A stretch of DNA of 64,000 nt, taken from Methyloversatilis discipulorum (GTDB lineage Bacteria > Pseudomonadota > Gammaproteobacteria > Burkholderiales > Rhodocyclaceae). The notes below the pieces were generated by a model. The model saw only the letters and a program-made list of their open reading frames with translations. It did no database searches and was not told where the DNA came from. Positions 37,829 through 54,254 of this stretch are shown one piece after another. Both the position numbers and the translations under genes were made by a program. The stretch covers positions 2,418,001-2,482,000 of the forward strand of contig NZ_ARVV01000001.1 of the NCBI RefSeq assembly GCF_000385375.1, given 5' to 3'. The number at the start of each line of letters is the position of its first letter. The stretch's first letter is position 1.

Positions 37829-38791
37829 ATGCACGCCACCCTGCCGCTGCTGTCCCGCACCGACTTCCCGCCACTGCGCCGCCATCGCACCGAAGTGCTG
37901 CAGGTCAATCTGGGCTACACCTGCAACCAGAGCTGCCTGCACTGCCACGTGAATGCAGGCCCGACGCGCACCGAACAGATGAGCGCCGAGAACATCCGCG
38001 CCGTGCTCGACTTCATCCGCGCCAGCGACGTTCGTCAGCTCGATCTGACCGGCGGCGCACCGGAAATGAATCCGCACTTCCGCGCGCTGGTGGTCGAGGC
38101 GCGCGCGCTCGGCGTATCGGTGATGGACCGCTGCAACCTCACCATCCTGTCCGAACCGGGCCACGAGGGATTGGCGGCCTTCCTGGCCGAGCAGAGCGTG
38201 CAGGTGACCGCGTCGCTGCCCTGCTACCTGGAGGACAACGTCGACCGGCAGCGCGGCAGCGGCGTGTTCGCACGCAGCATCGCCGGACTGAAGCAGCTGA
38301 ATGCGCTCGGCTACGGCCGGGCGGACGGCGGTCTCGAACTGAATCTGGTGTTCAACCCGCAGGGCCCCGCACTGCCACCGCCGCAGGCCCAGCTGGAAGG
38401 GGCGTATCGCGAGCACCTCGGGCGCGCATACGGCATCGTGTTCACCCGCCTGCTGACGCTGGCCAACATGCCGATCCAGCGCTTCGGCTCGACGCTGGTG
38501 TCCAAGGGTCTGTTCTCCGGCTACATGGAATTGCTGCGCGGCGCGCACCGTGACGACAACCTGCAGAACGTGATGTGCCGCAACCAGTTGAGCGTGGACT
38601 GGCAGGGCCACGTGTACGACTGCGACTTCAACCAGATGCTGGGGTTGCCGCTGCGCATCGAGGGACGGCCGCGCACCCATCTGTCGCAACTGCTGGGGCG
38701 CGATCTCGATGGCAATCCGGTGGTGGTGGCCGATCACTGCTATGGCTGTACCGCCGGACAGGGTTCGTCCTGTGGCGGCGCACTGAACTGA
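37829..38791 (+). CDS. arsS: ArsS-type radical SAM/Cys-rich protein
   Basis: The 320-residue radical SAM enzyme binds a 4Fe-4S cluster through Cys32, Cys36 and Cys39 (CNQSCLHCH). DLTGGAPEMNPHF is the family's SAM-binding motif. The C-terminal cysteine-rich domain (CRNQLSVDWQGHVYDCDFNQM, then CYGCTAGQGSSCGG) matches TIGR04167, the rSAM/SeCys family named ArsS in arsenosugar biosynthesis. The position that is selenocysteine in some relatives is an ordinary Cys here. It is the first gene of an eight-gene operon. No arsM lies nearby, so the substrate is uncertain. Confidence 0.88.
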   Translation: MHATLPLLSRTDFPPLRRHRTEVLQVNLGYTCNQSCLHCHVNAGPTRTEQMSAENIRAVLDFIRASDVRQLDLTGGAPEMNPHFRALVVEARALGVSVMDRCNLTILSEPGHEGLAAFLAEQSVQVTASLPCYLEDNVDRQRGSGVFARSIAGLKQLNALGYGRADGGLELNLVFNPQGPALPPPQAQLEGAYREHLGRAYGIVFTRLLTLANMPIQRFGSTLVSKGLFSGYMELLRGAHRDDNLQNVMCRNQLSVDWQGHVYDCDFNQMLGLPLRIEGRPRTHLSQLLGRDLDGNPVVVADHCYGCTAGQGSSCGGALN

Positions 38792-38801
38792 ACGCGCCGC
38801 G

Positions 38802-40196
38802 ATGAACGACCCTCTGCTGTTCGGCGCCGCCTTCTGGGGCTTCCTGATCCTGTACGGCGCCGGCATGTACGCGCTGTCGCCGCGCGCGGTCGGTCACGCC
38901 GGCTTCTTCCGCGGCCACGACGAAGCGGGCCGTCCGGCCGCCACATGGGCGCTCGGCGCCAGCATCTTCATTTCGTGGATATTCGCCAAGTCCATCACCA
39001 ACGCGGCGAACCTCGGCGCCACCTACGGCATCGTCGGCGGCCTCGCCTACGCCACCTACTGGCTGTCCATCCCGCTCGCCGGCTGGGCCATCCTGCGGCT
39101 GCGTCGCCGGTATGCGGCGACCGGTCTGCTGTCCTTCCTGATCACCCGTTACGGCCGCCTCGCCGCGCTGGCCTTTTCGCTGGCCATTCTGGTGCGACTG
39201 TTCAACGAGGTGTGGAGCAACACCTCGGTGGTCGGCGGTTACTACGGCGAAGCGGGTTCGGCCGGCTTCATCGGCGCGGCGCTGCTGTTCACCGCGGCCA
39301 CGCTGTTCTACAGCCTGAAGGGCGGACTGCGCTCGTCCATCTACACCGACGTGCTGCAGACCGTGCTGTTCGTCGGCTTCTTCGCCGTGGTCATGCTGAT
39401 GGTGCTGCCCACGCACGGACCGGCGACGCTGCTGTCGACCGGCGACTGGCGCTTCGACACGGGCGTCGACCTGTTGCTGGTGGCCGCGCTGCAGGTACTG
39501 TCCTATCCCTTCCACGATCCGGTGCTGACCGATCGCGGCTTCATCACCGACGAGCGCCGCATGCTGCGCGCCTTCGTCTGGGCCGGCCTGCTCGGCTTCG
39601 CCTGCATCCTGCTGTTTTCGCTGGTGGGTGTGCACGCGCGGCTGGAAGGCATCGCCGGCGGCGACAACGTGCCGGCCGCGCTCGCCCGCAGCATGGGGCC
39701 GGCTGCGCTGTTCGTGATGACCATCGTGATGGTGGCGGCCGCCGGTTCGACGCTGGACTCGACCTTCTCTTCGGTTGCCCGCCACGTCGCGCAGGAACTG
39801 CCGCAGCTGGCCGGCCGCCCGGAGCCGGCGCGCGCCATCGGCGTCGGCATGCTGGCGATGGCGGCGATCGCGCTGCTCGGCAACATTCCGATGATCGCTG
39901 GCACCGACATCCTGAAGGCGACGACGATCAGCGGCACCATGGTGATCGGGCTTGCGCCCATCTTCCTGCTGGCCGGTTTCACGCAGCCCGGCACAAGCGC
40001 CGCCGCGTGGTCCTTCCATCTCGCCTTCTGGACCGGCATGGTGCTCGGCGTGCTGCTCGCCGCCGGCCTGATACCGGACAGCTGGGCCATCGGCAGCGGC
40101 AAGTACGCCAAGCTGCTCGGCGTCAATCTTTACGGGCTGCTGCTGTGCACGGCAGGCTATCTGCTGCCCGCCCTGCTGACACGACGGGCGACATGA
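38802..40196 (+). CDS. Sodium/solute symporter (SSS family)
   Basis: The 464-residue integral membrane protein has about 12-13 hydrophobic segments and SSS-family features (SWIFAKSITNAANLGATYGIVGGLAYATYWLSIP, then SYPFHDPVLTDRGFITDERRMLRAF). It probably moves a small solute with Na+; the substrate cannot be read from sequence. It begins 10 bases after arsS and its stop overlaps the next start (ATGA), so it is an integral part of the operon. Homologues often accompany ArsS-type genes. Confidence 0.88.
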   Translation: MNDPLLFGAAFWGFLILYGAGMYALSPRAVGHAGFFRGHDEAGRPAATWALGASIFISWIFAKSITNAANLGATYGIVGGLAYATYWLSIPLAGWAILRLRRRYAATGLLSFLITRYGRLAALAFSLAILVRLFNEVWSNTSVVGGYYGEAGSAGFIGAALLFTAATLFYSLKGGLRSSIYTDVLQTVLFVGFFAVVMLMVLPTHGPATLLSTGDWRFDTGVDLLLVAALQVLSYPFHDPVLTDRGFITDERRMLRAFVWAGLLGFACILLFSLVGVHARLEGIAGGDNVPAALARSMGPAALFVMTIVMVAAAGSTLDSTFSSVARHVAQELPQLAGRPEPARAIGVGMLAMAAIALLGNIPMIAGTDILKATTISGTMVIGLAPIFLLAGFTQPGTSAAAWSFHLAFWTGMVLGVLLAAGLIPDSWAIGSGKYAKLLGVNLYGLLLCTAGYLLPALLTRRAT

Positions 40197-41140
40197 ATAT
40201 GGACAACGACATCGCGCACGGCAGGCCCGGTCGCAGCTGCCCGCTGCACTATCGTTACGGCGCCAGCGCACTCGCCAGTAACGCGCACGACGTCGCGGCC
40301 GACACGCTGTACGTGGTCGGTGGCCTGTACGGCAACCGCCCCGCGCTCGACGCGCTCGCCTGTTTGCTGGAAGCGGAGCGCGGCCCGGTGTGCGTGCTGT
40401 TCAACGGCGACTTCCATTGGTTCGACATCGACGCCGCCCACTTTGCCGACGTGCAGCGCCGCGTGCTCGCCTTCGATGCGATCGCCGGCAATGTCGAAGC
40501 CGAACTGGCCGACGACGCAGGCGACGCCGGTTGCGGCTGCGCCTACCCGGACGAAGTGCCGGAAGCGGTGGTCACCCGCTCGAATCTGATCCACGCCCGG
40601 CTGTCACAGACCGTGCGTCACGATCCGATGTGGCGCGGCGAACTGGCGGCGCTCGACTACTGGCGCGCGGTGCGCGTCGGCGAGGCACGCGTTGGGGTGG
40701 TGCATGGCGACGCCGAGGCACTGGCTGGCTGGACCTTCGACGCACGCGCGCTGCATGACCCGGCCCAGCGTACGGCGCACGAAGCGGCCTTCGCCGCCGC
40801 CCGCTGCGACGTGTTCGCCAGCAGCCACACCTGCCTGCCCGCGCTGGCGCGCTTCAACGAAGGCGTCGTGATCAACAACGGCGCCGCCGGCATGCCCAAT
40901 TTCCGCTACGCGCTGCATGGCGTCGTATCGCGCATCGCCGTAGCGCCGTCGCCGCACAGCCCTCTTTACGGTACCCGCATCCGCGGTGTGCATGTCGACG
41001 CCCTGCCGCTGCATTACGACAGCGCACGCTGGCTGGACGAATTCGACAGCCAGTGGCCGGCCGGCTCGCCAGCCGCACTGAACTACCGCGAGCGTATCCT
41101 GCACGGTCCGGCATGGACGCTGCGCGAGGCCGCGCCATGA
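40193..41140 (+). CDS. Degenerate calcineurin-like metallophosphoesterase
   Basis: The 315-residue protein follows the metallophosphoesterase pattern: GGLYGNRPALDAL where SDxHGN is expected, NGDFHWFD (GD at 72-73), GNVEAE (99-100), VVHGD and SSHTC in place of GHTH. The first metal-ligand motif has lost both Asp and His (Gly44, Tyr46). Either the metal site is altered or catalysis is lost. It overlaps both neighbours by four bases. The fold is inferred from the ordered motifs; the substrate is unknown. Confidence 0.75.
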   Translation: MNMDNDIAHGRPGRSCPLHYRYGASALASNAHDVAADTLYVVGGLYGNRPALDALACLLEAERGPVCVLFNGDFHWFDIDAAHFADVQRRVLAFDAIAGNVEAELADDAGDAGCGCAYPDEVPEAVVTRSNLIHARLSQTVRHDPMWRGELAALDYWRAVRVGEARVGVVHGDAEALAGWTFDARALHDPAQRTAHEAAFAAARCDVFASSHTCLPALARFNEGVVINNGAAGMPNFRYALHGVVSRIAVAPSPHSPLYGTRIRGVHVDALPLHYDSARWLDEFDSQWPAGSPAALNYRERILHGPAWTLREAAP

Positions 41141-43287
41141 ATGCCCGCAAGCTGGCGCTGCTGCTGATCCTGCTCGCGCTGGTCGGCGCCTTCTTCGTGT
41201 TCGACCTCGGCCGCTTTTTCGATCTCGCCTGGTTCAAGGCGCAACAGCAGATGCTGAACGAGCGCGTCGCCGCTGCGCCGTGGGCGGCGGCAGCGATCTA
41301 CTTCGTGGTCTATGTCGCCGTCACCGCGCTGTCCCTGCCCGGCGCCGCGGTGATGACGCTGGCCGGCGGCGCGCTGTTCGGCTTCTGGGTGGCGCTTGCG
41401 CTGGTGTCCTTCGCCTCCAGCCTGGGCGCCCTGCTCGCCTTCCTGATCGCGCGTTTCCTGCTGCGCGACTGGGTGCAGACCCGGGTCGGCAGGTCGCTCG
41501 ACGCGATCAACCGCGGCATCGAGCGTGACGGCGCCCTCTACCTGTTCACCTTGCGTCTGGTGCCGGCCTTCCCCTTCTTCGTCATCAACCTGGCGATGGC
41601 ACTGACCCGGCTGCCGGCACGCACCTTCTACTGGGTGAGCCAGGTCGGCATGCTGGCCGGTACCGCGGTCTACGTGAATGCGGGCACCCAGCTCGCGCAG
41701 ATCGACTCGCTCGCCGGCATCCTGTCGCCCGGCCTGATCGGCGCCTTCGTACTGCTCGGCCTGTTCCCGCTGATTGCGCGCAGGCTGATAGACATCGTGC
41801 GCGCCCGCGCCGTCTACAAGCGCTGGCCGCGGCCGGCGCGCTTCGACCACAACGTGGTGGTGATCGGCGGCGGCAGCGCCGGGCTGGTCACCGCCTACAT
41901 CGCGGCTGCCGTGAAGGCCAGCGTCGCGCTGATCGAGAAGCACCGCATGGGCGGGGACTGCCTGAACACCGGCTGCGTGCCGTCGAAGGCGCTCATCCGC
42001 TCGGCGCGCTTCATCGCGCAGGCGGCGAAGGCGCAGTCGCTGGGCATGAAGTCGGCGCCGGTCGATTTCGATTTTGCCGACGTGATGGAACGGGTCGCGC
42101 GCGTCGTACGTACGATAGAGCCGCACGACTCGGTCGAACGCTACCGCGCGCTCGGTGTCGAGTGCGTGCAGGGCGATGCACGCATCACCTCGCCATGGAC
42201 AGTCGAGGTCTACGCAGAAGACGGTCGCGCGCGCACGCTGAGCGCACGCAACATCGTCATCGCCGCCGGCGCCCGACCCTTCGTGCCGCCGATACCGGGC
42301 ATAGACCGGATCGAGGTACTGACCTCGGACACCGTGTGGTCACTGCGCACGCTGCCGCAACGCCTGCTGGTACTGGGCGGCGGGCCGATAGGGTGCGAGC
42401 TGGCGCAGGCCTTCGCCCGCTTCGGTGCGACGGTGACCCAGGTCGAGATGGCAGAGCGGCTGATGCTGCGCGAGGATCCCGAAGTGTCGGCGCTGGTCGA
42501 GAAACAGTTCGCCGCCGATGGTGTGCAGGTGCTCACCCGGCACAAGGCGGCACGCTTCGCGCTCGAGGGCGACGAGCGCGTGCTGTACGCCGAAGGCCCG
42601 GCCGGCGAAGTGCGTATCGTCTTCGACGCGCTGCTGTGCGCGGTCGGCCGCACGCCGAACGTGAGCGGCTACGGGCTGGAGGAACTGGGCATCGCGCTGC
42701 GCCCGAACCGCACGGTCGACACCAACGACTACCTGCAGACGCTGTATCCCAACATCTACGCCTGCGGCGACGTGACCGGCCCTTACCAGTTCACCCACAT
42801 GGCGGCGCATCAGGCCTGGTATGCGGCGGTCAATGCGCTGTTCGGCCGCTTCCGCCGTTTCCGCGTGGACTATTCGGTCGTCCCCTGGGCCACCTTCACC
42901 GAACCCGAGGTGGCCCGCGTCGGCCTCAACGAAAGCGAAGCCACTGAAAAGGGCGTGCCCTTCGAGGTGACCGTCTATGGCCTCGACGACCTCGACCGCG
43001 CGATCGCCGACGAGGCCGCACACGGCTTCGTCAAAGTGCTGACGGTGCCCGGCCGCGACCGCATCCTGGGTGTCACCATCGTCGGCGAACACGCCGGCGA
43101 ACTGATCGCCGAATACGTGCTGGCCATGCGCCACGGACTGGGTCTGAACAAGCTGCTGGGCACGATACACATCTACCCGACCATGAACGAGGCGAACAAG
43201 TACGCCGCCGGCGTCTGGAAGCGCGCGCACGCGCCGCGGAAGCTGCTCGAATGGGTCGGCCGCTATCACGCATGGATGCGCGGGTGA
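41137..43287 (+). CDS. TVP38/TMEM64 membrane domain fused to a disulfide-reductase flavoprotein
   Basis: Residues 1-230 form a DedA/TVP38-like membrane domain with several helices (SLPGAAVMTLAGGALFGFWVALAL, and FPFFVINLAMALTRL). Residues 245-716 are a pyridine nucleotide-disulfide oxidoreductase like mercuric reductase or dihydrolipoamide dehydrogenase. It has FAD motif VVIGGGSAGL, redox pair Cys275/Cys280 in GGDCLNTGCVPSK, NAD(P) motif LGGGPIGCELAQ, and C-terminal HIYPTMNEA in place of the usual HAHPT. The C-terminal mercury-binding CC is absent. It is thus a membrane-tethered thiol/disulfide reductase in the operon. Confidence 0.9.
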   Translation: MNARKLALLLILLALVGAFFVFDLGRFFDLAWFKAQQQMLNERVAAAPWAAAAIYFVVYVAVTALSLPGAAVMTLAGGALFGFWVALALVSFASSLGALLAFLIARFLLRDWVQTRVGRSLDAINRGIERDGALYLFTLRLVPAFPFFVINLAMALTRLPARTFYWVSQVGMLAGTAVYVNAGTQLAQIDSLAGILSPGLIGAFVLLGLFPLIARRLIDIVRARAVYKRWPRPARFDHNVVVIGGGSAGLVTAYIAAAVKASVALIEKHRMGGDCLNTGCVPSKALIRSARFIAQAAKAQSLGMKSAPVDFDFADVMERVARVVRTIEPHDSVERYRALGVECVQGDARITSPWTVEVYAEDGRARTLSARNIVIAAGARPFVPPIPGIDRIEVLTSDTVWSLRTLPQRLLVLGGGPIGCELAQAFARFGATVTQVEMAERLMLREDPEVSALVEKQFAADGVQVLTRHKAARFALEGDERVLYAEGPAGEVRIVFDALLCAVGRTPNVSGYGLEELGIALRPNRTVDTNDYLQTLYPNIYACGDVTGPYQFTHMAAHQAWYAAVNALFGRFRRFRVDYSVVPWATFTEPEVARVGLNESEATEKGVPFEVTVYGLDDLDRAIADEAAHGFVKVLTVPGRDRILGVTIVGEHAGELIAEYVLAMRHGLGLNKLLGTIHIYPTMNEANKYAAGVWKRAHAPRKLLEWVGRYHAWMRG

Positions 43288-43970
43288 GCCGGCTGTCCAT
43301 CGTCGTGCCGGTGCTGGACGAGGCGCCGGGCATCGTCGCGACGCTGCAGGCACTGCAGCCGCTGCGCGCATCCGGCGCGCAGATCGTCGTTGCCGACGGC
43401 GGCAGCCGCGACGACAGCTGCGCGCTGGCGCGGCCCTTGTGCGATGTGCTCGTCGTGTCGTCACGCGGCCGCGCGCTGCAGATGAATGCCGGCGCTGCGC
43501 ATGCCCGCGGCGAGGTGCTGCTCTTCCTGCACGCCGACAGCACGCTGCCGGACGGCGCGCCCTTGCTGATCGACAACGCGCTCGACAGCGGTGCGCAGTG
43601 GGGCCGCTTCGACGTCGCGATCGAAGGCCGTTCTCCGCTGCTGCGCGTGGTCGCCTTCATGATGAATCTGCGCTCGCGCCTGAGCGGCATCGCGACTGGC
43701 GACCAGGCGATGTTCTGTACGCGCGCGCTGTTCGATCACCTGGGCGGCTTCGCGCCGATCGCGCTGATGGAAGACATCGATTTCTCGCGCCGCGCACTGA
43801 GCCTCAGCGCGCCTGCCTGTCTGCGCGCACGCGTGCGCACCTCGGGACGCCGCTGGGAGAAGCACGGCGTGCTGCGCACCGTGTGGCTGATGTGGCGGCT
43901 GCGCCTGCGCTATTTTTTCGGTGCCGACCCGCAGACGCTGGCGCGCAGCTACCGGCCGCACCATGACTGA
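43272..43970 (+). CDS. TIGR04283-type glycosyltransferase (family 2 fold)
   Basis: The 232-residue GT-A enzyme has the N-terminal nucleotide-sugar site LSIVVPVLDEAPGIVATLQALQPL, then VVADGGSRDDS and the DxD-like HADSTLP. TGDQAMFCTRALFDHLGGFAPIALMEDIDFSRR is typical of TIGR04283, the rSAM/selenodomain-associated transferase 2. A GTG at 43284 (GTGA overlap) is an alternative start to ATG 43272. It should transfer a sugar to an unknown operon intermediate. Confidence 0.87.
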   Translation: MDARVSRLSIVVPVLDEAPGIVATLQALQPLRASGAQIVVADGGSRDDSCALARPLCDVLVVSSRGRALQMNAGAAHARGEVLLFLHADSTLPDGAPLLIDNALDSGAQWGRFDVAIEGRSPLLRVVAFMMNLRSRLSGIATGDQAMFCTRALFDHLGGFAPIALMEDIDFSRRALSLSAPACLRARVRTSGRRWEKHGVLRTVWLMWRLRLRYFFGADPQTLARSYRPHHD

Positions 43971-44592
43971 GTCGACGGCGGTACTGGTGTTTGCCCGCGC
44001 GCCGGTGCCGGGCGCTGCAAAGACGCGGCTGATGCCGGCGCTCGGCGCCGACGGCGCGGCGCGCGCCAGCGCGGCCCTGACACGGCGTGCGCTGCGCACC
44101 GCGGCCGATGCACGCCTTGGCGCAGTCGAACTGTGGTGCGCGCCCGACTGCAGCCACCCCTTCTTCGCCGACTGCGCTTTCGAGTTCGGGGTCACGCTGC
44201 ATGCGCAGTCGGCGGGCGACGTCGGCCAGCGCATGGCGCAGGCCTTCGACGACGCACTGGGGCGGCATGCGCGGGTGGTACTGATCGGCGCCGACGCGGT
44301 GTCGCTGCAGGCGGCCGATCTGGCCGCCGCGGCAATGGCGCTGAACGGGCACGACGCGGCCTTTGCGCCGGCCGAGGACGGCGGCTACCTGCTGGTCGCG
44401 CTGCGCAGCCGGCAGCCCGCCTTGTTCGACGGCCCGGCCTGGGGCAGCTCGTCGGTATGGACGCAGACCTGTGCACGCCTCGACGCGCAGGGTCTGCGCA
44501 CCTGCGTGCTGCCGACCGGCTACGACGTCGATCACCCGGCCGACTGGCAGCGCGCGCTGCGCGAGGGCCTGCTGGAGGGCGGCGCATGCTGA
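43963..44592 (+). CDS. TIGR04282-type transferase (DUF2064)
   Basis: The 209-residue protein has a nucleotidyl/glycosyltransferase-like fold, with N-terminal VLVFARAPVPGAAKTRLMPALG and the acidic metal site LIGADAVSLQ. The APAEDGGYLLVALR motif is near residue 140, and a WGSSSVW segment follows. It matches TIGR04282, rSAM/selenodomain-associated transferase 1. It overlaps the preceding glycosyltransferase by 8 bases and the next gene by 7. The two transferases probably act in sequence. Confidence 0.87.
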   Translation: MTESTAVLVFARAPVPGAAKTRLMPALGADGAARASAALTRRALRTAADARLGAVELWCAPDCSHPFFADCAFEFGVTLHAQSAGDVGQRMAQAFDDALGRHARVVLIGADAVSLQAADLAAAAMALNGHDAAFAPAEDGGYLLVALRSRQPALFDGPAWGSSSVWTQTCARLDAQGLRTCVLPTGYDVDHPADWQRALREGLLEGGAC

Positions 44593-45317
44593 CCCGCCTG
44601 CGCCTGCTGCTGTGGGCGACTGCGCTGGCGCTGGCCGGCGAAGTGTGTGCGGGCGGCGCGCTGCCGCGCTTTTCGGCGCAGTCCGCTGGTGCCGCCATCG
44701 CCGGCTGGACACCGTGGACGCTGGGCGGCAAGGCCGCGCCCGCGGATTTCCGCCTGACCGGACTGGACGGGCAGACGGTACTGCGCGCCGAAGCCGTCAA
44801 TGCCGCGTCGGCGCTGATCCACGCCGGTCGCTTCGACACCGCCGCAACACCCTGGCTGAACTGGCGCTGGCGCGCCGACCGCCTGCCGACCGGCAACCGC
44901 TTCGCGACGCGCGACGGCGACGACTACGTGCTGCGCGTCTATGTGCTGTTCGACTACGACATCGCCAAGCTGCCCTTCGGCGCCCGCACGAAGCTGCGCA
45001 TCGCCCGCGCGCTGCACGGCGATCAGGTGCCCGCCGCGGTGCTCTGCTACGTGTGGGACAACCGCGTGCAACCCGGCACGCGCGCCTGGAGTGCCTACAC
45101 CGACCGCGTGCGCATGATCGCGGTGGAAGGCGACGGCTCGCCGACCGGTGTCTGGCGCAGCGCCAGCCGCAATCTGCGCGACGACTTCCGCGAAGCCTTC
45201 GGCGAGGACGCTCCGCCGGTCATCGGCGTCGTCGTCGCGGCCGATACCGACAACACCGCCGGCAGTTCGCTCGGCCATTTCGGCGACCTGTCGCTCGACG
45301 CCCAGCCGCTGCCATGA
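44586..45317 (+). CDS. DUF3047 exported protein
   Basis: The 243-residue protein starts with a signal peptide (MLTRLRLLLWATALALAGEVCAG). A beta-rich DUF3047 domain follows: PWLNWRWRADRLPTGN, DYVLRVYVLFDYD, VLCYVWDNR and VIGVVVAADTDNTAGSSLGHFGDL. No enzymatic activity is known for the family. Its signal peptide places one product of the operon in the periplasm or outer envelope. It overlaps both neighbours (7 and 4 bases). Confidence 0.85.
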   Translation: MLTRLRLLLWATALALAGEVCAGGALPRFSAQSAGAAIAGWTPWTLGGKAAPADFRLTGLDGQTVLRAEAVNAASALIHAGRFDTAATPWLNWRWRADRLPTGNRFATRDGDDYVLRVYVLFDYDIAKLPFGARTKLRIARALHGDQVPAAVLCYVWDNRVQPGTRAWSAYTDRVRMIAVEGDGSPTGVWRSASRNLRDDFREAFGEDAPPVIGVVVAADTDNTAGSSLGHFGDLSLDAQPLP

Positions 45318-46411
45318 CAAAGCTGGTGCTGCTCGGCGGTGGCCACGCCCACCTCTTCGTGCTCGAAGCCTTCGCCCGGCAGCGGCCGGATGCCGACATC
45401 AGGCTGATCACGCCCGAGGCGCTGACGCCCTACTCCGGCATGCTGCCGGGCGTACTGGCCGGTCATTACCGCGCGCGCCAGGCCTGCATCGACCTGCGGC
45501 CGCTGGCCGACCGTGCGGCTTGTCTGCTGACGCTGGACAGCGCGGTCGGGCTCGATGCCGCGCGTCGCCGGATCACGCTGACCGGCGGCGAAGTGATCGA
45601 CTACGACCTGCTGTCCATGGATACCGGCTCGACACCCCGTCGCCCCGATGTGCCGGGTGCGGCCGAGAACGCACACGCGGTGAAACCGATAGCCGGCCTG
45701 CTCGCGCGCTGCGCTGACGCGGTGCCGCGCGCCATCGCCGTGCTGGGCGCAGGTGCCGCCGGCGTCGAAGTGGCGATGGCGCTGCATTACCGCTGGCCGG
45801 CAGCACGCTGCTCGCTGGTCGAACGCGGCACGGCGCCGCTCGAAGGTCTTGGCGCGCGGCTGCAGCGCAGCGTCGGTGCCGAACTTGCGCACCAGCAGAT
45901 CGAGGTCGTCGCCGGTGCCGAAATCACGCGGATCGACGCGAGCGCCATCGGGCTGGAAGACGGCCGCACCATCGCCAGCGATTTCACCGTGCTCGCCACC
46001 GGCGCCGCCGCACCCGCCTGGCTGCGGGACAGCGGACTGGCGCTCGACGCGCGCGGCTTCATCGAGGTCGGTGCCACGCTGCAGTCGACCTCGCACCCCG
46101 AGGTGTTTGCCGCCGGCGACGTCGCAACACTGAGTGCTTCGCCGCGACCGAAGTCCGGTGTCTATGCGGTACGCGCCGGGCCTCCGCTGGCCACCAACAT
46201 CGCACGCATGCTGGCCGGCCAGCCGCCGCTCGACTGGCACGCGCAGCGGCACGCACTGATGCTGCTCGCCTGCGGCCGCCGCCACGCCATCGCCGCCCGC
46301 GGCGGATGGGTGCTCAAGGGCGACTGGGTATGGCGCTGGAAGGACGCGATAGACCGCGGCTTCGTGCGCCGTTTCGATCCGCGGGCCGATATTGCGGCTG
46401 ACATGGGCTGA
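45314..46411 (+). CDS. FAD oxidoreductase of the Nterm-to-SelD type
   Basis: The 365-residue flavoprotein starts MTKLVLLGGGHAHLFVLEAF, the FAD-binding signature of NDH-2-like domains often fused to selenophosphate synthetase (TIGR03169). ALTPYSGMLPGVLAGHY, the second Rossmann motif AVLGAGAAGVEVAMAL and FAAGDVA are present. Here it stands alone: no SelD domain follows, and the next 200 bases hold only REPs. It is the last gene of the operon (ATGA overlap with DUF3047). The electron acceptor is unknown. Confidence 0.87.
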   Translation: MTKLVLLGGGHAHLFVLEAFARQRPDADIRLITPEALTPYSGMLPGVLAGHYRARQACIDLRPLADRAACLLTLDSAVGLDAARRRITLTGGEVIDYDLLSMDTGSTPRRPDVPGAAENAHAVKPIAGLLARCADAVPRAIAVLGAGAAGVEVAMALHYRWPAARCSLVERGTAPLEGLGARLQRSVGAELAHQQIEVVAGAEITRIDASAIGLEDGRTIASDFTVLATGAAAPAWLRDSGLALDARGFIEVGATLQSTSHPEVFAAGDVATLSASPRPKSGVYAVRAGPPLATNIARMLAGQPPLDWHAQRHALMLLACGRRHAIAARGGWVLKGDWVWRWKDAIDRGFVRRFDPRADIAADMG

Positions 46412-46442: not shown

Positions 46443-46470
46443 GCCGTGTCGCGGCCAAGGCCGCTCCCAC
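46443..46470 (+). repeat. REP element, copy 1
   Basis: This element has palindrome GCGGCC-AA-GGCCGC plus the TCCCAC tail. A 25-base stretch, 46443-46467, is identical to 46571-46595. It lies after the operon end at 46411. Confidence 0.85.
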
Positions 46471-46570: not shown

Positions 46571-46596
46571 GCCGTGTCGCGGCCAAGGCCGCTCCA
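46571..46596 (+). repeat. REP element, copy 3
   Basis: This is a direct repeat of copy 1, identical over 25 bases, 128 bases away. It lies 30 bases before the ybbA stop, between convergent genes. Confidence 0.85.
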
Positions 46597-46625
46597 ACGA
46601 TCCGCGCACGGGCACGCTCAGGCCG

Positions 46626-47315
46626 CTACGCCATCATCCGCCCGGCAGACAGCCGGATGCGCCGGCTGCAGCGCGCAGCGAGCGCTTCGTCGTGCGTCAC
46701 CAGCACCAGGGTCGTGCCCTGTTCGGCGTTCATTTCGAACATCAGGTCGATGATGGAGGCACCGGTCGCCGCGTCGAGATTGCCGGTCGGTTCGTCGGCC
46801 AGCAGCAGCTGCGGCTCGGGCGCGAAGGCGCGGGCAAGCGCGACGCGCTGCTGTTCGCCGCCCGAAAGCTGACGCGGATAATGGGTCAGCCGGCTGCCGA
46901 GGCCGACACGTTCGAGCAACGCGACCGAGCGCTCGCGCACGCGCTCGGCATTGGCCAGTTCCAGCGGCAGCATGACGTTCTCGAGCGCGGTCAGTGCCGG
47001 CAGCAGCTGGAAGGACTGGAACACGAAGCCCACCTTGTCACCGCGCAGTTCGGCCCGCGCGTCCTCGTCGAGCGCGAAGATGTCCTGACCGGCGATGCGA
47101 ACCGAACCGCTACTCGGCAGGTCAAGACCGGCAAGCAGCCCGAGCAGCGTCGACTTGCCCGAACCGCTGGCACCGACGATGGCCAAGGCCTCGCCGGCAC
47201 CGACCTCGAAGGCGATATCCTGAAGGATCTGCAGCGGCGCATTGCCGCTGCTGACCTGTTTTCCCAGCCCGCTGACTTCGAGCAGCGGGCCTGATTGCGG
47301 AGTGTCTGTAGGCAT
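46626..47315 (-). CDS. ybbA: ABC transporter ATP-binding protein, YbbA/LolD type
   Basis: The 229-residue ATPase has Walker [19 protein letters not shown], signature [17 protein letters not shown], Walker [13 protein letters not shown] and H-loop VTHDE, with the MacB/LolD pattern [12 protein letters not shown]. Its position divergent from tesA matches ybbA. The permease gene ybbP, normally next, is absent: the following gene is convergent and belongs to the arsS operon. The start codon shares a CATG with tesA; an upstream in-frame ATG exists inside tesA. Confidence 0.87.
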
Positions 47316-47937
47316 GAAGAAGCTTTTCTGGTCCCTGTTCGTCCTGTTGTTCGCCGCCATGCCCGTCGCCGCGCAGACCGTGCTGGTGGTCGGCGACAGC
47401 CTGTCGGCCGGCTACGGCCTGCGCCAGCAGGAGGCCTGGCCGGTATTGCTCGGCGACAGGCTGAAGCAGTCCGGTTACGGTCATGCGGTGGTCAATGCCA
47501 GCACCAGCGGCGACACCACCGCCAACGGATTGTCGCGCATCGACGCCGCACTGGCCGCGCACAAGCCTGCCATCGTCATCATCGCACTCGGCGCCAATGA
47601 CGGCCTGCGCGGCCTGTCGCTGAAAACGATGCGCGACAACCTGGAAAGCATGACGCGCAAGGCGCAGGCTGGAGGCGCCAAGGTGCTGATCGCCGGCATG
47701 CAGCTGCCGCCGAACTACGGCCCCGACTACACGCAAAAGTTCGCCGCCACCTTTTCCGAGGTGGCAAAGTCCACCGGCTCGGCGCTGCTGCCCTTCCTGC
47801 TCGACGGCTTCGCCACCGATCCGCAGCAGTTTCTGCCGGACGGCATCCATCCTGTTGCTGCGGCGCAGCCGCGCATCGTGGACAATGTATGGACGCCGCT
47901 CCGCTCCCTGATCGGCAAGCCGCTGGCGCGGCGCTGA
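47314..47937 (+). CDS. tesA: Arylesterase / thioesterase I (SGNH hydrolase)
   Basis: TesA is a periplasmic lysophospholipase/acyl-thioesterase. The 207-residue precursor has a signal peptide ending near PVAAQTVLVVG. The SGNH blocks are VVGDSLSAGYGL (serine), the glycine in TSGDTTANGL, GANDGLRG, and DGIHPVAAAQ with catalytic Asp and His. A GGAG lies about 11 bases before the ATG. It is divergent from ybbA, as in E. coli. Confidence 0.93.
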   Translation: MKKLFWSLFVLLFAAMPVAAQTVLVVGDSLSAGYGLRQQEAWPVLLGDRLKQSGYGHAVVNASTSGDTTANGLSRIDAALAAHKPAIVIIALGANDGLRGLSLKTMRDNLESMTRKAQAGGAKVLIAGMQLPPNYGPDYTQKFAATFSEVAKSTGSALLPFLLDGFATDPQQFLPDGIHPVAAAQPRIVDNVWTPLRSLIGKPLARR

Positions 47938-47980
47938 GCGCGCCGCCGCGCACACCACGAACAGACAGGACATCCGCTGC

Positions 47981-49099
47981 ATGAACGCCCCTTCCGGCCA
48001 GCGCCGCCCGGCCGGCATCGCCCAGGTCGACCAGCTGTACGGCTTCGACGCCATCATCGACACCCGTTCGCCCGCCGAATTCGCACTCGACCATGTACCG
48101 GGCGCCATCAACTGCCCGGCGCTCGACAACGAACAGCGGGCGGAGATCGGCACGCTCTACAAGCAGGTGTCGCCCTTTGTCGCGAGGCGTCGCGGCGCGG
48201 CGCTGGTGGCGATCAACATCGGCCGTCACCTGCTCGAACGCTTCCAGGACAAGGGGCCGGACTGGCGGCCGCTGATCTACTGCTGGCGCGGCGGCAAGCG
48301 CAGCGGCGCCTTCGTCACCATATTCCGTCAGGTCGGCTGGGACGCCCACCAGCTCGACGGCGGCTACAAGGCCTACCGGCGCGAAGTGCTGGCACGGCTG
48401 GCGGCACTGCCGGCCGCCTTCGACTTCCGCGTCGTCAGCGGCCCGACCGGCAGCGCGAAGAGCCGCGTGCTCGAACGCCTTGCCGCACGCGGCGAACAGG
48501 TGCTGGATCTGGAAGCGCTGGCGGCGCACAAGGGCTCGGTGCTCGGTCGCCAGCCCGGCGTCGACCAGCCACCGCAGAAACTGTTCGAGTCGCGCCTGCT
48601 GCACGCGCTGTCGGCGCTCGACCCGGCGCGCCCGGTGTTCGCCGAGGCGGAAAGCCGCCGCATCGGTCTGGTCACTGTGCCGGACGCGCTGATCGAGCGG
48701 TTACGCGCCGCACCCTGCATCCGCATCGACGTGCCGGCTACGGCGCGCACCGAATTCCTGCTGCGCGACTACGACTACATGACGCAGGACGCCGAGTCGC
48801 TGATCGAGCGGCTGGAGCGCCTGACCGAGCTGCGCGGCCGCGACACCGTGGCGGCGTGGTCCGCACTCGCGCGTTCGGGGCAGTGGGCCGAGCTGGTTGC
48901 GAGCCTGCTCGGACAGCACTACGACCCGCTGTACCGCCGCTCGCAGTCGAACAACTTCAGCCGCCACACCGATGCCCCGACCGTCGCCGCCGAGCGGCTG
49001 GACGATGCCGGCATCGATAGTCTGGCCGGGCAGATCGCAGTCGCCTCGGGTCAGTTCAGCACCGGCAGCACGTCCGAGCGCACCGCGCAGATGCGCTGA
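47981..49099 (+). CDS. mnmH: tRNA 2-selenouridine synthase
   Basis: MnmH/SelU converts 2-thiouridine at the wobble position of certain tRNAs to 2-selenouridine, using selenophosphate and a geranylated intermediate. The 372-residue protein has an N-terminal rhodanese domain with Cys in IYCWRGGKRSG, then a P-loop domain with GPTGSAKSRVL (Ala where the third Gly is common). SelD must exist elsewhere in the genome for it to work. Its 3' end overlaps the convergent methyltransferase by 49 bases. Confidence 0.92.
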   Translation: MNAPSGQRRPAGIAQVDQLYGFDAIIDTRSPAEFALDHVPGAINCPALDNEQRAEIGTLYKQVSPFVARRRGAALVAINIGRHLLERFQDKGPDWRPLIYCWRGGKRSGAFVTIFRQVGWDAHQLDGGYKAYRREVLARLAALPAAFDFRVVSGPTGSAKSRVLERLAARGEQVLDLEALAAHKGSVLGRQPGVDQPPQKLFESRLLHALSALDPARPVFAEAESRRIGLVTVPDALIERLRAAPCIRIDVPATARTEFLLRDYDYMTQDAESLIERLERLTELRGRDTVAAWSALARSGQWAELVASLLGQHYDPLYRRSQSNNFSRHTDAPTVAAERLDDAGIDSLAGQIAVASGQFSTGSTSERTAQMR

Positions 49100-49602
49100 A
49101 TCATCGCCGGCGCCGGACGGGCGATCTCGCCCTGTTCGAAAGCGATCACGCTGCCCCAGCTGCGCACCCAGTCCAGCAGCTCATGCGGCCGCAGCAGGAA
49201 ATCCGGGTTCGACGGCTTGCCGAAACGCGCGTTGCCGTCCATGAAAGTTTCGTAGATCAGCAGGCCGCCCGGCTTGAGCAGCGCGGCGACACGATCCAGC
49301 CGCGGCCGGAACAGGTAGCGGGTCACCACCACCGCATCGAAGCAGGCTTCGCCCCAGGGCCAGTCGCCGCCCTCAAGGTCGGCGCACAGCGTGCGGATGC
49401 TCGGCTGCCCGTCCAGCGTTGCCAGCGCCGCGGCGTCACGGTCGGCCGCCAGCACGTTCAGGTCGCGTCCCGCCAGCCAGCGCGCGTGGCGACCACCGCC
49501 GCAGGCAAGATCGAGCACGTCGGCGCCGCGCGGGATCAGTGCGCCGAAACGCACCACCCAGTCCGACGCGTCCTGCATTGAAAAATGAGGATGAGATGCC
49601 AT
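49051..49602 (-). CDS. Class I SAM-dependent methyltransferase
   Basis: The 183-residue protein has motif I VLDLACGGGRHARWLAG, an acidic residue in AADRD, motif II FDAVVVTRYLFRP and motif III LLKPGGLLIYETF. This is TehB/UbiE-like in size and pattern; the substrate is unknown. The ATG at 49602 is preferred because the upstream frame runs antisense into the kinase gene. It is convergent and overlapping with mnmH and divergent from the PAS kinase. Confidence 0.85.
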   Translation of the reverse strand: MASHPHFSMQDASDWVVRFGALIPRGADVLDLACGGGRHARWLAGRDLNVLAADRDAAALATLDGQPSIRTLCADLEGGDWPWGEACFDAVVVTRYLFRPRLDRVAALLKPGGLLIYETFMDGNARFGKPSNPDFLLRPHELLDWVRSWGSVIAFEQGEIARPAPAMIQRICAVRSDVLPVLN

Positions 49603-49671
49603 CTGCGGGCCCTTATTCGGGTTTTCGTGTCGAGGGGTCGCATTATCATCCCGGGGATACCAAGGACAATA

Positions 49672-51378
49672 ATGTTCCGCTCTCCGGACCTTCCGCCGCC
49701 CACCCGTGGCGCGCGGACATTCTTTCTGTGGCGCGCATTGCCGCTCGCCCTGCTCGCCGCAGCGCTCGCCGCCACCGAGTCGCTGCCGGTCGGGCTCGCG
49801 GTGCTGGCCGCCAGCCTCGGCATCGGCGTGCTCGCGCTGCGCGAACAGGACCGGCTGGCGCGGGAGGTCGAACAGCACCGGCTCGACGCCGCCCGCCTGC
49901 GCGACTACACCGACCTTGCCACCGACTGGCACTGGGAAACCGATGCCGCACTCCGGCTGCAGTACTCGCGCGCCGAAGGTCACCTGGCCAGCGCACTCGA
50001 CCAGCGCGCCGTGCGCAACCGTCGCCTGTGGGAGATCAACGCCCTGTCGCCGGTGCACGGCGACTGGGAGGAATGTCATCGCCAGTTCCAGAGCGGCAAA
50101 TCGCTGCAGCTTCATCTGGTGCTGCACCGGCCGGACGGCGTAGTGCGCCACATCGAGCTGCGCGGGCGCCCGATCACCGACGGCAGCGGCCAGCTGTGCG
50201 GCTATCGCGGCACCGGCCGCGACGAGACCGCCTTCGTGCAGTCGACCCGGGCACTGCGCGAGGTCGAGACGCGACACCGCGAAATGGTGAATCACCTGCG
50301 CGAAGTCATCTTCCGCATCGACGCACGCGGCCGCTTCACCTACCTTAACCGCGCCTGGGAAACCTTGACCGGCCAGCCGGTGAATCAGGCCATCGGCCAG
50401 CGCATCCTGCGCTGGCTCAGCAAGGACGAGGCGCGCTATCTGCTCGCGCGGCTGGAGCCCATGCTCGACGGCCGCCGCGACTCGATGCAGATCGAGGTGC
50501 GTACCGGTACCGGCAGCGCGTCGGCGCGCTGGCTGGAAATCGCCATCGGTGCCCGTTTCGACGGCAATGGCAAGCTCGAAAGCCTGTCCGGCAGCATCGA
50601 GGACATCACCCAGCGCAAACAGGCCGAAGCGACGCTGTACGACATGAATGCGGAGCTGGAGCGCCGCGTGAAGCGCCGAACCGCCGAGCTGGAGGCGTCC
50701 AACCGCGAACTGGAGGCCTTCTCGTACTCGGTGTCGCACGACCTGCGCAACCCGCTGCGCGCCATCGACGGCTTTTCACAGATCATCATGGAAGACTATG
50801 GCGACCAGCTGGATGCGCAGGCGCACAGCCATCTCGCGCGCATCCGCGCCGCCTCGCAGAAGCTGTCGACGCTGATCGACGACCTGCTCGAACTGGGCCG
50901 GCTCACGCGCACGCCGATCAGCCGCGCCGAGGTCGACCTGTCGGCGCTGGCGCGCGCCATCATGCGCGACCTGCGTGCGGAATCGCCGGAACGCGAGGGC
51001 AAGCTGGCCATCGGCATGCACCTGATGGCGCGCGTCGACCCGATGCTGGCGCGCGTGCTGCTGGAACACCTGCTGCGCAACGCCTGGACCTTCACCGCCG
51101 GCCGCGAAACCGCGGAAATCGAGTTCGACGCCCGCCTGCGCAACCGTGAAGTGGTGTTCCACATCCGCGACAACGGCATCGGCTTCGACATGGCGCACGC
51201 GGCACAGCTGTTCAAGCCTTTCAACCGGCTGCACGACCAATCGGACCGCAGCGGCACCGGCATCGGTCTGGCCACCGTGCAGCGCATCGTCAACCGCCAC
51301 GGCGGCCGCATCTGGGCCGAAGGCGCCCCGGACAAGGGCGCCTGCTTCTACTTCACGCTGCCCGATCCGACACACTGA
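49672..51378 (+). CDS. PAS-domain sensor histidine kinase
   Basis: From ATG 49672 (AAGGA upstream) the 568-residue kinase has a short N-terminal membrane segment. Two PAS domains follow (about residues 70-190 and 205-325), then a coiled coil (AELERRVKRRTAELEASNRELEAF). HisKA has its histidine in SVSHDLRNPLRAIDGF, and HATPase has DNGIGFD and SGTGIGLATVQRIV. The N-box reads LLRNAWTF, with Thr where Lys is common. No response regulator is adjacent. Confidence 0.9.
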   Translation: MFRSPDLPPPTRGARTFFLWRALPLALLAAALAATESLPVGLAVLAASLGIGVLALREQDRLAREVEQHRLDAARLRDYTDLATDWHWETDAALRLQYSRAEGHLASALDQRAVRNRRLWEINALSPVHGDWEECHRQFQSGKSLQLHLVLHRPDGVVRHIELRGRPITDGSGQLCGYRGTGRDETAFVQSTRALREVETRHREMVNHLREVIFRIDARGRFTYLNRAWETLTGQPVNQAIGQRILRWLSKDEARYLLARLEPMLDGRRDSMQIEVRTGTGSASARWLEIAIGARFDGNGKLESLSGSIEDITQRKQAEATLYDMNAELERRVKRRTAELEASNRELEAFSYSVSHDLRNPLRAIDGFSQIIMEDYGDQLDAQAHSHLARIRAASQKLSTLIDDLLELGRLTRTPISRAEVDLSALARAIMRDLRAESPEREGKLAIGMHLMARVDPMLARVLLEHLLRNAWTFTAGRETAEIEFDARLRNREVVFHIRDNGIGFDMAHAAQLFKPFNRLHDQSDRSGTGIGLATVQRIVNRHGGRIWAEGAPDKGACFYFTLPDPTH

Positions 51379-51453
51379 CGGCTGCCGGCGCAAGGATGTA
51401 GGCTGCGCACCACACTCGCCGCGAAGTGTGGATTTCCACAAGCGGCATTTATG

Positions 51454-51470
51454 TTGCAATGCAATATACT
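51454..51470 (+). promoter_or_regulatory. Palindrome and -10-like element upstream of the Pat-type gene
   Basis: TTGCAATGCAA (51454-51464), a perfect inverted repeat about one central base, directly abuts TATACT (51465-51470), a good -10. No convincing -35 lies 17 bp upstream, so an activator or repressor at the palindrome is plausible. TTGC-N3-GCAA resembles TGC-N-GCA sites bound by PhaR-type regulators, but this is only a resemblance. Confidence 0.45.
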
Positions 51471-51560
51471 GGGGTCCAACGTGCACGGGCGCACTGCTCA
51501 CGGAAGCGCACAAGGCGGACACCCCACACTGCCTGAAAGCCTTCCCAGACACGGGAGTTC

Positions 51561-54254
51561 ATGATGCAGTACGAGCACTATCTCAAATCCATGTTCGAGC
51601 CGCAGTCGGTGGCCATCATCGGCGCCAGCGAGCGGCCGGACTCGATCGGCGCGGTCATCGTCCGCAACATGCTGGACGCGCAGTTCAGTGGCGAACTGCA
51701 TGCCATCAATCCGAAACACAAGGCGGTCTTCGGCGTGCCCTGCGTGGCGCGCATCGACGACCTGCGCAAGCGGCCCGACCTCGTCATCATCTGCACGCCG
51801 GCGCGCACGGTGCCCGGCCTGATCGACGAATGCGGTCGCGCCGGCATCAAGGCGGCCATCGTTATCAGCGCCGGTTTCGCCGAAACCGGCCCGGCCGGCG
51901 CCGAACTGGTGCGCCGCACCCGCTCCGCCGCCAAGCGCAACGGCGTGCGCATCATCGGGCCCAACTGCTTGGGCCTGATGCGCCCGTCTCTGGGTCTCAA
52001 CGCCACTTTTGCGCGCTCGCCCGGCAAGGCGGGCAGCATCGGCCTCATTTCGCAGTCGGGCGCCGTGTGCACCGCACTGCTCGACTGGGCGCAATCGAAC
52101 GGCGTCGGCTTCTCGACCGTCGTGTCGCTGGGCGCCTCGATCGACCTCGATTTCGGTGAAATCCTCGACTACATGATTGCCGACCCGAAGACGGAAAGCA
52201 TCTTCATGTACATCGAGGGCATACGCGACGCGCGCCGCTTCATGAGCGCGGTGCGCGCGGCCGCCCGCGTCAAGCCGGTGCTGGCGATCAAGGTCGGCCG
52301 TCATCCGGCCGGCACCAAGGCGGTCGCTTCGCACACGGGCGCCATGGTGGGCGCCGACGACGTGTTCGACGCCGCGCTGCGCCGCGCCGGCGTCGTGCGG
52401 CTGTCCACGCTGGGCCAGATGTTCTCGGCCGCCAATGCGCTGTTCACCGGCTTCAAGCCGGCCGGCAAGCGGCTGGCGGTCGTCACCAACGGCGGCGGGC
52501 CGGGCGTGATGGCCGCCGACCGTGCAGCCGACCTCGGCATTCCGCTCGCCCAGCTGGCGCCGGAAACGCTGGAAGTGCTCAACCGTACGCTGCCGCCGAC
52601 CTGGTCGCACGCCAACCCGATCGACCTGATCGGCGACGCCGACGATGCGCGCTACCGCGCGGCGCTCGAAGCGGTTCTGGCCGACCCCGGCGTCGATGGC
52701 GTGCTGACGCTGCTGACGCCGCAGGCGATGACGCATCCGACCGCGGTGGCGGAAGCGGTGATCGACATCGCCAAGACCGCCAACAAGCCGCTGATGACCT
52801 GCTGGATGGGTTGCGACCAGGTACGCGCCGCGCGCTCGCTGTTCGAGGCCGCACACATTCCGACCTTCCGCTCGCCGGAGCCGGCGGTCGAGCTGTTCCA
52901 TCACATCTCCTCCTACTACCGCAACCAGCAGCTGCTGCGCCACGCGCCGGCGTCGCTGGCGCAGGACCTCGATCCGCCGTCGGTGGAATCGGCCCGGCTG
53001 GTGATCGAAACCGCGCTGTCCGAGCGGCGCACCGTGCTGACCGAGATGGAATCGAAGGCGCTGCTCGCCGCCTTCCGGATACCGATCGCGCAAACCGTGG
53101 TTGCGCGGAGCGCCACCGAGGCCATGGTGTACGCCGAAGAGATGGGGCTGCCGGTGGCGATGAAGATCGATTCGCCGGACATCACGCACAAGAGCGACGT
53201 CGGCGGCGTGCGCCTGCATGTCGACAACCTGCGTTCGGTACGCGACTGCTGGCAGGAACTGATGGCCGAAGTCGGCCGCCGCAAGCCGGACGCCCGCCTG
53301 CGCGGCGTGTCGATCGAGCCGATGGTGAACAAGCGCAATGCGCGCGAGCTGTTCGTCGGCGTGGTGCACGACGACGTGTTCGGCCCGGTGATCAGCTTCG
53401 GGCATGGCGGTACGCGGGTCGAGGTGCTGCGCGACCGTGCGGTCACTTTGCCGCCGATCAACGTCGAACTGGCGCGCGACGCCATCCAGCGCACCCGCGT
53501 GTCGGCCATGCTGGGCGAGTTCCGCGGCATGCCCGCGATCGACATGGAAGCGCTCGAACGGGTGCTGATCCGCGTGTCGGAAATGGTGTGCGAGCTGCCG
53601 TGGATACGCGAGATGGACATCAATCCGCTGCTGGTCGACGAAAGCGGCTGCGTGGCGGTGGACGCCCGCATCATCCTCGCCGACGTGCAGCCGACGGCCA
53701 CGCCCTACTCGCACATGGCCATCCACCCGTACCCGGCACGGCTGGAGCACGTGGTGAACCTGCCCAACGGCACGCGCGCCATCATCCGCCCGATCCGGCC
53801 GGAAGACGCCGACCGTGAAGCCAAGTTCGTACGCGAGCTGTCGGCGGAAACCCGCTACCTGCGCTTCATGAGCACGATCAAGGAACTGCCGCCGCAGTTG
53901 CTGGCGCGTCTGACGCAGATCGACTACGACCGCGAAATGGCGCTGGTCGCGGTCAGCGAGGGCGAAACCGAGGAACAGCTGGGGGTCTGTCGCTACGTGG
54001 TGAATCCCGATGGCGAAACCTGCGAATTCGCCATCGTGATCGCCGACGCCTGGCAGCGTCAGGGCCTGGCCCGCATCATGATGAATCTGCTGATCGAAGC
54101 GGCGCGCGAGCGCGGCCTCAAGGTGATGGAAGGCGTCTTCCTCGCCAACAACGAACGCATGCTGCGTTTCGTGCAGAGCCTGGGCTTCCACATCAACCGC
54201 GATCCCGAGGACAGTTCGCTGGTGAATGGCGAACTGCTGCTGCGCCCGGCATGA
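51561..54254 (+). CDS. Acyl-CoA synthetase (NDP-forming)/GNAT acetyltransferase, Pat type
   Basis: The 897-residue protein is built like protein acetyltransferase Pat (PatZ/YfiQ). It has a CoA-binding domain (SVAIIGASERPDSIG), succinyl-CoA-ligase-like domains, ATP-grasp (residues about 490-710) and a C-terminal GNAT domain (about 735-890) with acetyl-CoA motif WQRQGLARIM. Pat acetylates metabolic enzymes such as acetyl-CoA synthetase. The segment SHTGAMVG keeps His258, where ADP-forming synthetases have their phospho-histidine. GGGAG precedes the ATG, and the stop overlaps tag (ATGA). Confidence 0.88.
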   Translation: MMQYEHYLKSMFEPQSVAIIGASERPDSIGAVIVRNMLDAQFSGELHAINPKHKAVFGVPCVARIDDLRKRPDLVIICTPARTVPGLIDECGRAGIKAAIVISAGFAETGPAGAELVRRTRSAAKRNGVRIIGPNCLGLMRPSLGLNATFARSPGKAGSIGLISQSGAVCTALLDWAQSNGVGFSTVVSLGASIDLDFGEILDYMIADPKTESIFMYIEGIRDARRFMSAVRAAARVKPVLAIKVGRHPAGTKAVASHTGAMVGADDVFDAALRRAGVVRLSTLGQMFSAANALFTGFKPAGKRLAVVTNGGGPGVMAADRAADLGIPLAQLAPETLEVLNRTLPPTWSHANPIDLIGDADDARYRAALEAVLADPGVDGVLTLLTPQAMTHPTAVAEAVIDIAKTANKPLMTCWMGCDQVRAARSLFEAAHIPTFRSPEPAVELFHHISSYYRNQQLLRHAPASLAQDLDPPSVESARLVIETALSERRTVLTEMESKALLAAFRIPIAQTVVARSATEAMVYAEEMGLPVAMKIDSPDITHKSDVGGVRLHVDNLRSVRDCWQELMAEVGRRKPDARLRGVSIEPMVNKRNARELFVGVVHDDVFGPVISFGHGGTRVEVLRDRAVTLPPINVELARDAIQRTRVSAMLGEFRGMPAIDMEALERVLIRVSEMVCELPWIREMDINPLLVDESGCVAVDARIILADVQPTATPYSHMAIHPYPARLEHVVNLPNGTRAIIRPIRPEDADREAKFVRELSAETRYLRFMSTIKELPPQLLARLTQIDYDREMALVAVSEGETEEQLGVCRYVVNPDGETCEFAIVIADAWQRQGLARIMMNLLIEAARERGLKVMEGVFLANNERMLRFVQSLGFHINRDPEDSSLVNGELLLRPA

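Follow-up and report, generated by a model that had tools for sequence, protein, structure and literature searches.

We find that eight consecutive genes of Methyloversatilis discipulorum form one unit, and our best explanation is that this unit is an ArsS-type arsenosugar operon in which import of a small oxyanion has replaced methylation by ArsM, the most likely candidate being a methylated arsenical (dimethylarsinate, for example); we favor this explanation tentatively, at slightly less than an even chance. In the best reading of the data, a single ArsS chemistry is fed by either of two interchangeable modules, ArsM or an importer together with a protein of predicted phosphoesterase fold, and the bacterium may import its starting compound rather than produce it. 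To our knowledge, the arsenosugar makers described so far carry out both steps, methylation and glycosylation of arsenic. What is new here is an ArsS pathway with the same core in which ArsM is exchanged for an importer and the phosphoesterase-fold protein; in the open-licence literature on ArsS clusters, methylarsenic importers and HtxB with arsenic, such an exchange is not described among the matches listed.

The genome is a single contig of 4.25 Mb, of which we analysed a stretch of 64,000 nt, here called the window. The eight genes (g1 to g8) occupy positions 37829–46411, all on the plus strand, with successive gaps of +10, −4, −4, −16, −8, −7 and −4 nt, which agrees in coordinates, strand and range of gaps (+10 to −16 nt) with an earlier reading of this DNA made from the sequence only. 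The first gene, g1 (37829..38791), encodes an ArsS-type radical SAM protein in its Cys form, with a DUF3641 C-terminus ending in CYGCTAGQGSSCGGALN. It matches TIGR04167 over its full length with 447 bits (cut-off 300), and PF12345 as well, and it carries both the CxxxCxxC motif and the C-terminal Cys-rich domain that mark the ArsS family; its C32, C36, C39, C250, C265, C304, C307 and C315 are among the positions conserved to at least 97% in 115 radical SAM sequences. The product of g2 (38802..40196) is a sodium:solute symporter (SSS) and predicted importer, with 34.6 bits for PF00474 (cut-off 22.8) and 44 bits for TIGR00813, under the cut-off of 184. It is followed by g3 (40193..41140), for a 315-aa protein predicted to have a metallophosphoesterase fold, and by g4 (41137..43287), which by its domain matches encodes a VTT membrane domain fused to an FAD pyridine nucleotide-disulfide oxidoreductase, with C275 and C280 conserved and Tyr680 within HxYPTxxE. 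Both transferase families of the arsenosugar pathway are present above cut-off, namely the TIGR04283 glycosyltransferase g5 (43272..43970, with a possible alternative ATG start at 43251; 263 bits, cut-off 182) and the CofC-like transferase g6 of TIGR04282/DUF2064 (43963..44592; 185 bits, cut-off 134), for which the nearest solved structure is 3cgx. The last two genes encode a DUF3047 protein with an N-terminus that by eye resembles a signal peptide (g7, 44586..45317; 214 bits) and an FAD oxidoreductase of the 'Nterm_to_SelD' family TIGR03169 (g8, 45314..46411; 376 bits).

On the 5′ side, a divergent gene, alcohol-dehydrogenase-like by eye, lies 136 nt from the operon. The 3′ flank holds, in order, two 28-nt repeats directly after the operon (46443–46470 and 46571–46598, plus strand), an ABC ATPase gene on the opposite strand, a GDSL esterase gene and, 1.6 kb downstream of the operon, mnmH for tRNA 2-selenouridine synthase (47981..49099, plus strand). 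The repeats are GC-rich, 96% alike and REP-like, and their 22-nt core has no further copy in the window at up to 3 mismatches. Sigma-70-like promoters and Rfam families were also searched for at the locus, and none were found.

We regard the eight genes as a unit because five same-genus genomes besides that of the window keep all eight in the same order; the radical SAM gene is found in six of the eight genomes of the genus. One of the two genomes without it (G134, the other being G105) has abcA, the GDSL esterase gene and mnmH with none of the eight genes adjoining, and its DNA aligns to window positions 46635–54835 at 74–81% with an unrelated three-gene stretch before it; this comparison covers the right flank, as no alignment was obtained for the left one within 32 kb. 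We considered g8 as a partner of mnmH and rejected this, since G134 has mnmH without any of the eight genes beside it. In the comparison of gene order proposed in the sequence-only reading, the exact eight-gene order was seen only within the genus (and, without the symporter, in one near relative, L077), but the core pair of radical SAM and TIGR04283 genes occurs together in 65 of 66 genomes that carry the former.

That reading had also seen no arsM within reach of the operon, and had named a co-regulated arsM elsewhere, with an ordinary arsenosugar product, as a finding that would speak against its interpretation. No recognisable ArsM was found genome-wide by two models and a loose search. 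With NF008823 there was none at E ≤ 1e-25, where 12 of 23 candidates were scored; a second model, for the type of ArsM linked to ArsS, gave nothing at E ≤ 1e-20 (10 of 25 scored); and in the loose search, in which each of the 28 candidates was scored, the highest match reached 30 bits and covered part of the model.

The same genes were then counted in 199 genomes of the family with completeness of at least 90%, at thresholds of E ≤ 1e-15 for g3, E ≤ 1e-70 for the g2 clade, E ≤ 1e-50 for an HtxB-like binding protein and E ≤ 1e-20 for ArsM-like proteins (for the latter, no more than ten candidates were scored in each genome). The radical SAM gene is present in 66 and TIGR04283 in 67 of them, with both in 65 (Fisher 6e-49, kinship ignored); the two that have TIGR04283 but lack a match to the radical SAM gene, G083 and G145, are drafts. 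All 29 genomes with g3, all 23 with the g2 clade and all seven with the HtxB-like binding protein are radical-SAM-positive, and none of these seven has g2. An importer is present in 24 of the 29 g3-positive genomes. A long ArsM with a Cys-rich tail (>400 bits) occurs in 20 of the 199 genomes, 18 of them radical-SAM-positive, and any ArsM-like match in 21 of the 66 positive against nine of the 133 negative genomes. Among the positive genomes, ArsM-like matches are found in 17 of the 36 that lack an importer, against 4 of the 30 that have one (Fisher 0.004, uncorrected for descent; a test corrected for descent had only 3 usable pairs). The four genomes that combine the two (G050, G138, G149, G166) count against the reading of an exchange. 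As a separate observation, ArsM-like matches in G108 (C10:204625–205287) and G048 (C1:60969–61631) contain an in-frame TGA and are possibly selenoprotein forms.

Also counting against an exchange are 16 of the 66 positive genomes that have neither an ArsM-like match nor an importer nor g3. As these genomes must have another supply, they could suggest that the operon is an ordinary arsenosugar operon and that an unrecognised methyltransferase elsewhere in the genome does the methylation. We consider this very unlikely, since nothing ArsM-like scores above 30 bits in the operon's own genome and since it would leave unexplained why g2 and g3 are found only with g1 across the 199 genomes.

In the radical SAM neighbourhoods, stretches of up to 20 kb from the 65 other positive genomes, several of which end at contig ends where absences are weak, ArsM is found in 10, g2, g3 or the HtxB-like ABC importer in 27, none of these in 28 and both kinds in 0 (Fisher 0.004, uncorrected for descent). 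In eight mapped loci ArsM follows directly after the radical SAM gene, and in L069 a single run holds selD, radical SAM, ArsM, g4, g7, g5, g6 and g8; operons of the ArsM type and the g2 type therefore share a core. A second sample, partly overlapping the 199 genomes, comprises the 80 best of 391 loci found via g3. On the strand of g3 and up to 3.6 kb upstream of it, 42 of these loci have g2 and 21 the HtxB-like ABC importer; in 14 the radical SAM gene comes immediately before g3, and 3 have something else. ArsM is found in 0 of these best 80 of 391, the radical SAM gene is present in 62 of the stretches, and 73 hold one or more core genes. The import step proposed from the sequence is thus strengthened, as relatives can have an ABC importer in the position that the symporter occupies here. 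In three loci of one genus (L011, L017, L025) the radical SAM gene is followed first by ArsM and next by a PstS-like ABC importer, possibly for arsenate or phosphate, and an importer is therefore compatible with ArsM.

Some further features of these stretches may be recorded. A cluster of sigma factors (one member scanned: TIGR02943, above cut-off) occurs in 19 of 66 mapped stretches, including L008, L036, L052 and L069, and a cluster of small Cys-rich, zinc-finger-like proteins in 14 of 66; both are possible regulators. Beyond the transferases, L098 and L143 have proteins that by eye are DUF547-like, Rieske-oxygenase-like and rhodanese-like, with similar-sized genes in several other Burkholderiales loci. 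The ABC version is also present in L142, a metagenome-assembled contig titled Bordetella parapertussis, a label that looks doubtful.

The sequence-only reading had suggested that the operon makes a different sugar-linked compound, and this was not supported. When 115 radical SAM copies were aligned (uncalled copies and those outside 280–420 aa left out), no position had one residue in >80% of the 9 ArsM-type and <20% of the 74 g3-type sequences, so that a different compound arising through a changed radical SAM site was rejected by this criterion. Mapped onto a quick tree of the radical SAM proteins, the ArsM label requires 6 changes and that for g3 requires 16. With no separating position in g1 and neighbours that changed several times on one tree, the same chemistry is the simpler reading. 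A different sugar-linked product may still be made, as SelD-type genes accompany the pathway in some genomes.

What, then, could be imported? The window has the symporter g2 and not the HtxB-like binding protein, and the nature of the ligand is approached here through the relatives. Their ABC binding protein belongs to PF12974 (phosphonate-binding), and among solved structures its best match is HtxB (178 bits), followed by PtxB, with PhnD, AioX and ArrX further down. We consider dimethylarsinate a candidate: it is similar in build to hypophosphite but bears methyl groups where the latter has hydrogens, and an ArsS enzyme without ArsM would need it. According to an excerpt of PMC5700983, HtxB binds the two-oxygen anion hypophosphite, its F158, W52 and N128 occupy sites where PtxB residues serve a third oxygen, and its D206 and R178 form an ion pair; a passage of PMC5908839 states that AioX, of the same fold, binds arsenite. 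In an alignment of 17 of the 19 matches (two fragments left out), the equivalents of HtxB W52, R178 and D206 are kept in 17/17, and N128 and F158 are replaced by Ser and His, as in PtxB, leaving three of five HtxB residues. As the pocket is mixed in this way, phosphite, methylarsonate or selenite also remain candidate ligands. The imported anion is perhaps methylated arsenic.

The predicted phosphoesterase fold of g3, the placement of the binding protein in PF12974 with its two PtxB-like pocket residues, and the association of an importer with most g3-positive genomes would all be consistent with import of a non-arsenic compound for use by g3, g5 and g6, either an aglycone (a phosphorus compound or a sulfonate, for instance) or phosphite, with methylated arsenic entering unaided from neighbours. 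We find this unlikely, as an importer of an aglycone would not explain why ArsM and g2, g3 or the HtxB-like ABC importer never share one of the 65 neighbourhoods. The g3 fold does not obviously suit arsenic chemistry, and this counts against our favored explanation. A more specific form of that explanation, which we regard as possible though rather doubtful, is that g2 and the HtxB-like ABC system serve specifically to import methylated arsenic, as dimethylarsinate or methylarsonate, and that g3 is a former phosphoesterase rebuilt as a Cys-rich handler of arsenicals. If so, this would be a scavenging route from environmental methylarsenicals to arsenosugars, with methylation and glycosylation split between organisms, and the first dedicated uptake system for methylated arsenic known to us; none appears among the literature matches listed.

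Selenium has to be weighed as well. The same genome has selD, about 64 kb before the window; its presence was rejected as a discriminating mark, as 177 of the 199 family genomes have selD. A second match to TIGR00476 occurs in 14 of the 66 radical-SAM-positive genomes, against 3 of the 133 negative ones (Fisher 2e-5, uncorrected for descent). Thirteen of the 14 lie in frames of 758–989 aa with 156–298 bits and are probably g8-SelD fusions, bearing in mind that some ordinary selD genes also sit in frames >700 aa and frame length alone is a weak mark; such fusions were read directly in three g3 loci (L113, L121, L126), with CGGCGAK kept. In G151 a plain selD adjoins the radical SAM gene, lying before it. 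A COG1252-SelD fusion of cyanobacteria is proposed as a selenium reductant in an excerpt of PMC2432076, and a portion of PMC13188914 lists a selenoprotein version of TIGR04167. On this evidence the operon could make a selenium sugar, with g8 and SelD giving activated selenium and the importer taking selenite. We judge this improbable: the radical SAM gene is followed directly by ArsM in the eight loci above, adenosylation of arsenic by a radical SAM enzyme in arsenosugar synthesis is stated in an excerpt of PMC12159101, two positive drafts (G012, G174) have no selD match, and G134 has selD and mnmH without the operon. SenA and SenB of the selenoneine-type pathway are not among the families matched by the eight genes. 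The fusions in 13 positive genomes, probable as they are, nevertheless point to selenium and count against our favored explanation; SelD belongs to the wider pathway in some members, and a selenium product or a mixed role may exist.

Under the arsenosugar explanation that we favor, the steps would be as follows. The symporter g2, or the HtxB-like ABC system that takes its place in relatives, would import the anion, and g4 together with the Cys-rich g3 could help to reduce it or hold the trivalent form. The exact substrate of ArsS is dimethylarsinite. The radical SAM enzyme g1 would join the imported arsenical to the 5′-deoxyadenosyl group of SAM, a reaction reported for ArsS and predicted here from sequence. 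The product would be remodelled and glycosylated by g6 and g5, g7 may act outside the inner membrane, and g8 might contribute a redox reaction, perhaps together with SelD. Should many ArsS clusters of the family import a ready substrate, counts of arsM will miss possible makers. Two unrelated transporters alternating at one place furthermore make the question of the ligand directly testable with purified binding protein.

Several known systems resemble parts of the operon. With the calcineurin-like metallophosphoesterases, such as SapH and PH1004, g3 has in common the predicted fold and, by eye, the D/N/H/H of one metal site. Pfam and NCBIfam give no match for g3 at E ≤ 0.001 (a g3 relative matches PF12850 at E 0.0025, below cut-off) and a PDB sequence search found no relatives, but its predicted structure (pLDDT 93) has SapH as best structural match (E 8.5e-11, TM 0.57 by query length). 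Two-metal metallophosphoesterases have the ligand set DxH...GD...GN...H...GHxH. In 55 aligned sequences, with motifs assigned by eye, g3 keeps D73, N100, H171 and H212 and departs from this set in having Gly44 and Tyr46 at the expected DxH (55/55) and Cys214 for the last His of GHxH (54/55), with three more invariant Cys (C16, C114, C116). The COG1252-SelD fusion corresponds in its N-terminal half (TIGR03169) to g8, which in contrast stands alone in the window, with selD elsewhere in the genome. Compared with the HtxB/PtxB importers of reduced phosphorus, the relatives' binding protein is closest to HtxB, with W52 and the R178-D206 pair kept, but shares Ser and His with PtxB, a mixture of features like that of the 'hybrid' class described in an excerpt of PMC5700983, and it differs from them in setting, as 16 of the 21 ABC loci among the best 80 of 391 g3 loci adjoin core genes of the ArsS pathway. 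The closest system is the ArsM-ArsS arsenosugar pathway, with which the operon shares a radical SAM protein far above cut-off and both TIGR04282 and TIGR04283 above cut-off, and the g4, g7 and g8 types also adjoin ArsM in L069; it differs in that no ArsM was found in its genome and that g2 and g3 occupy the place after the radical SAM gene.
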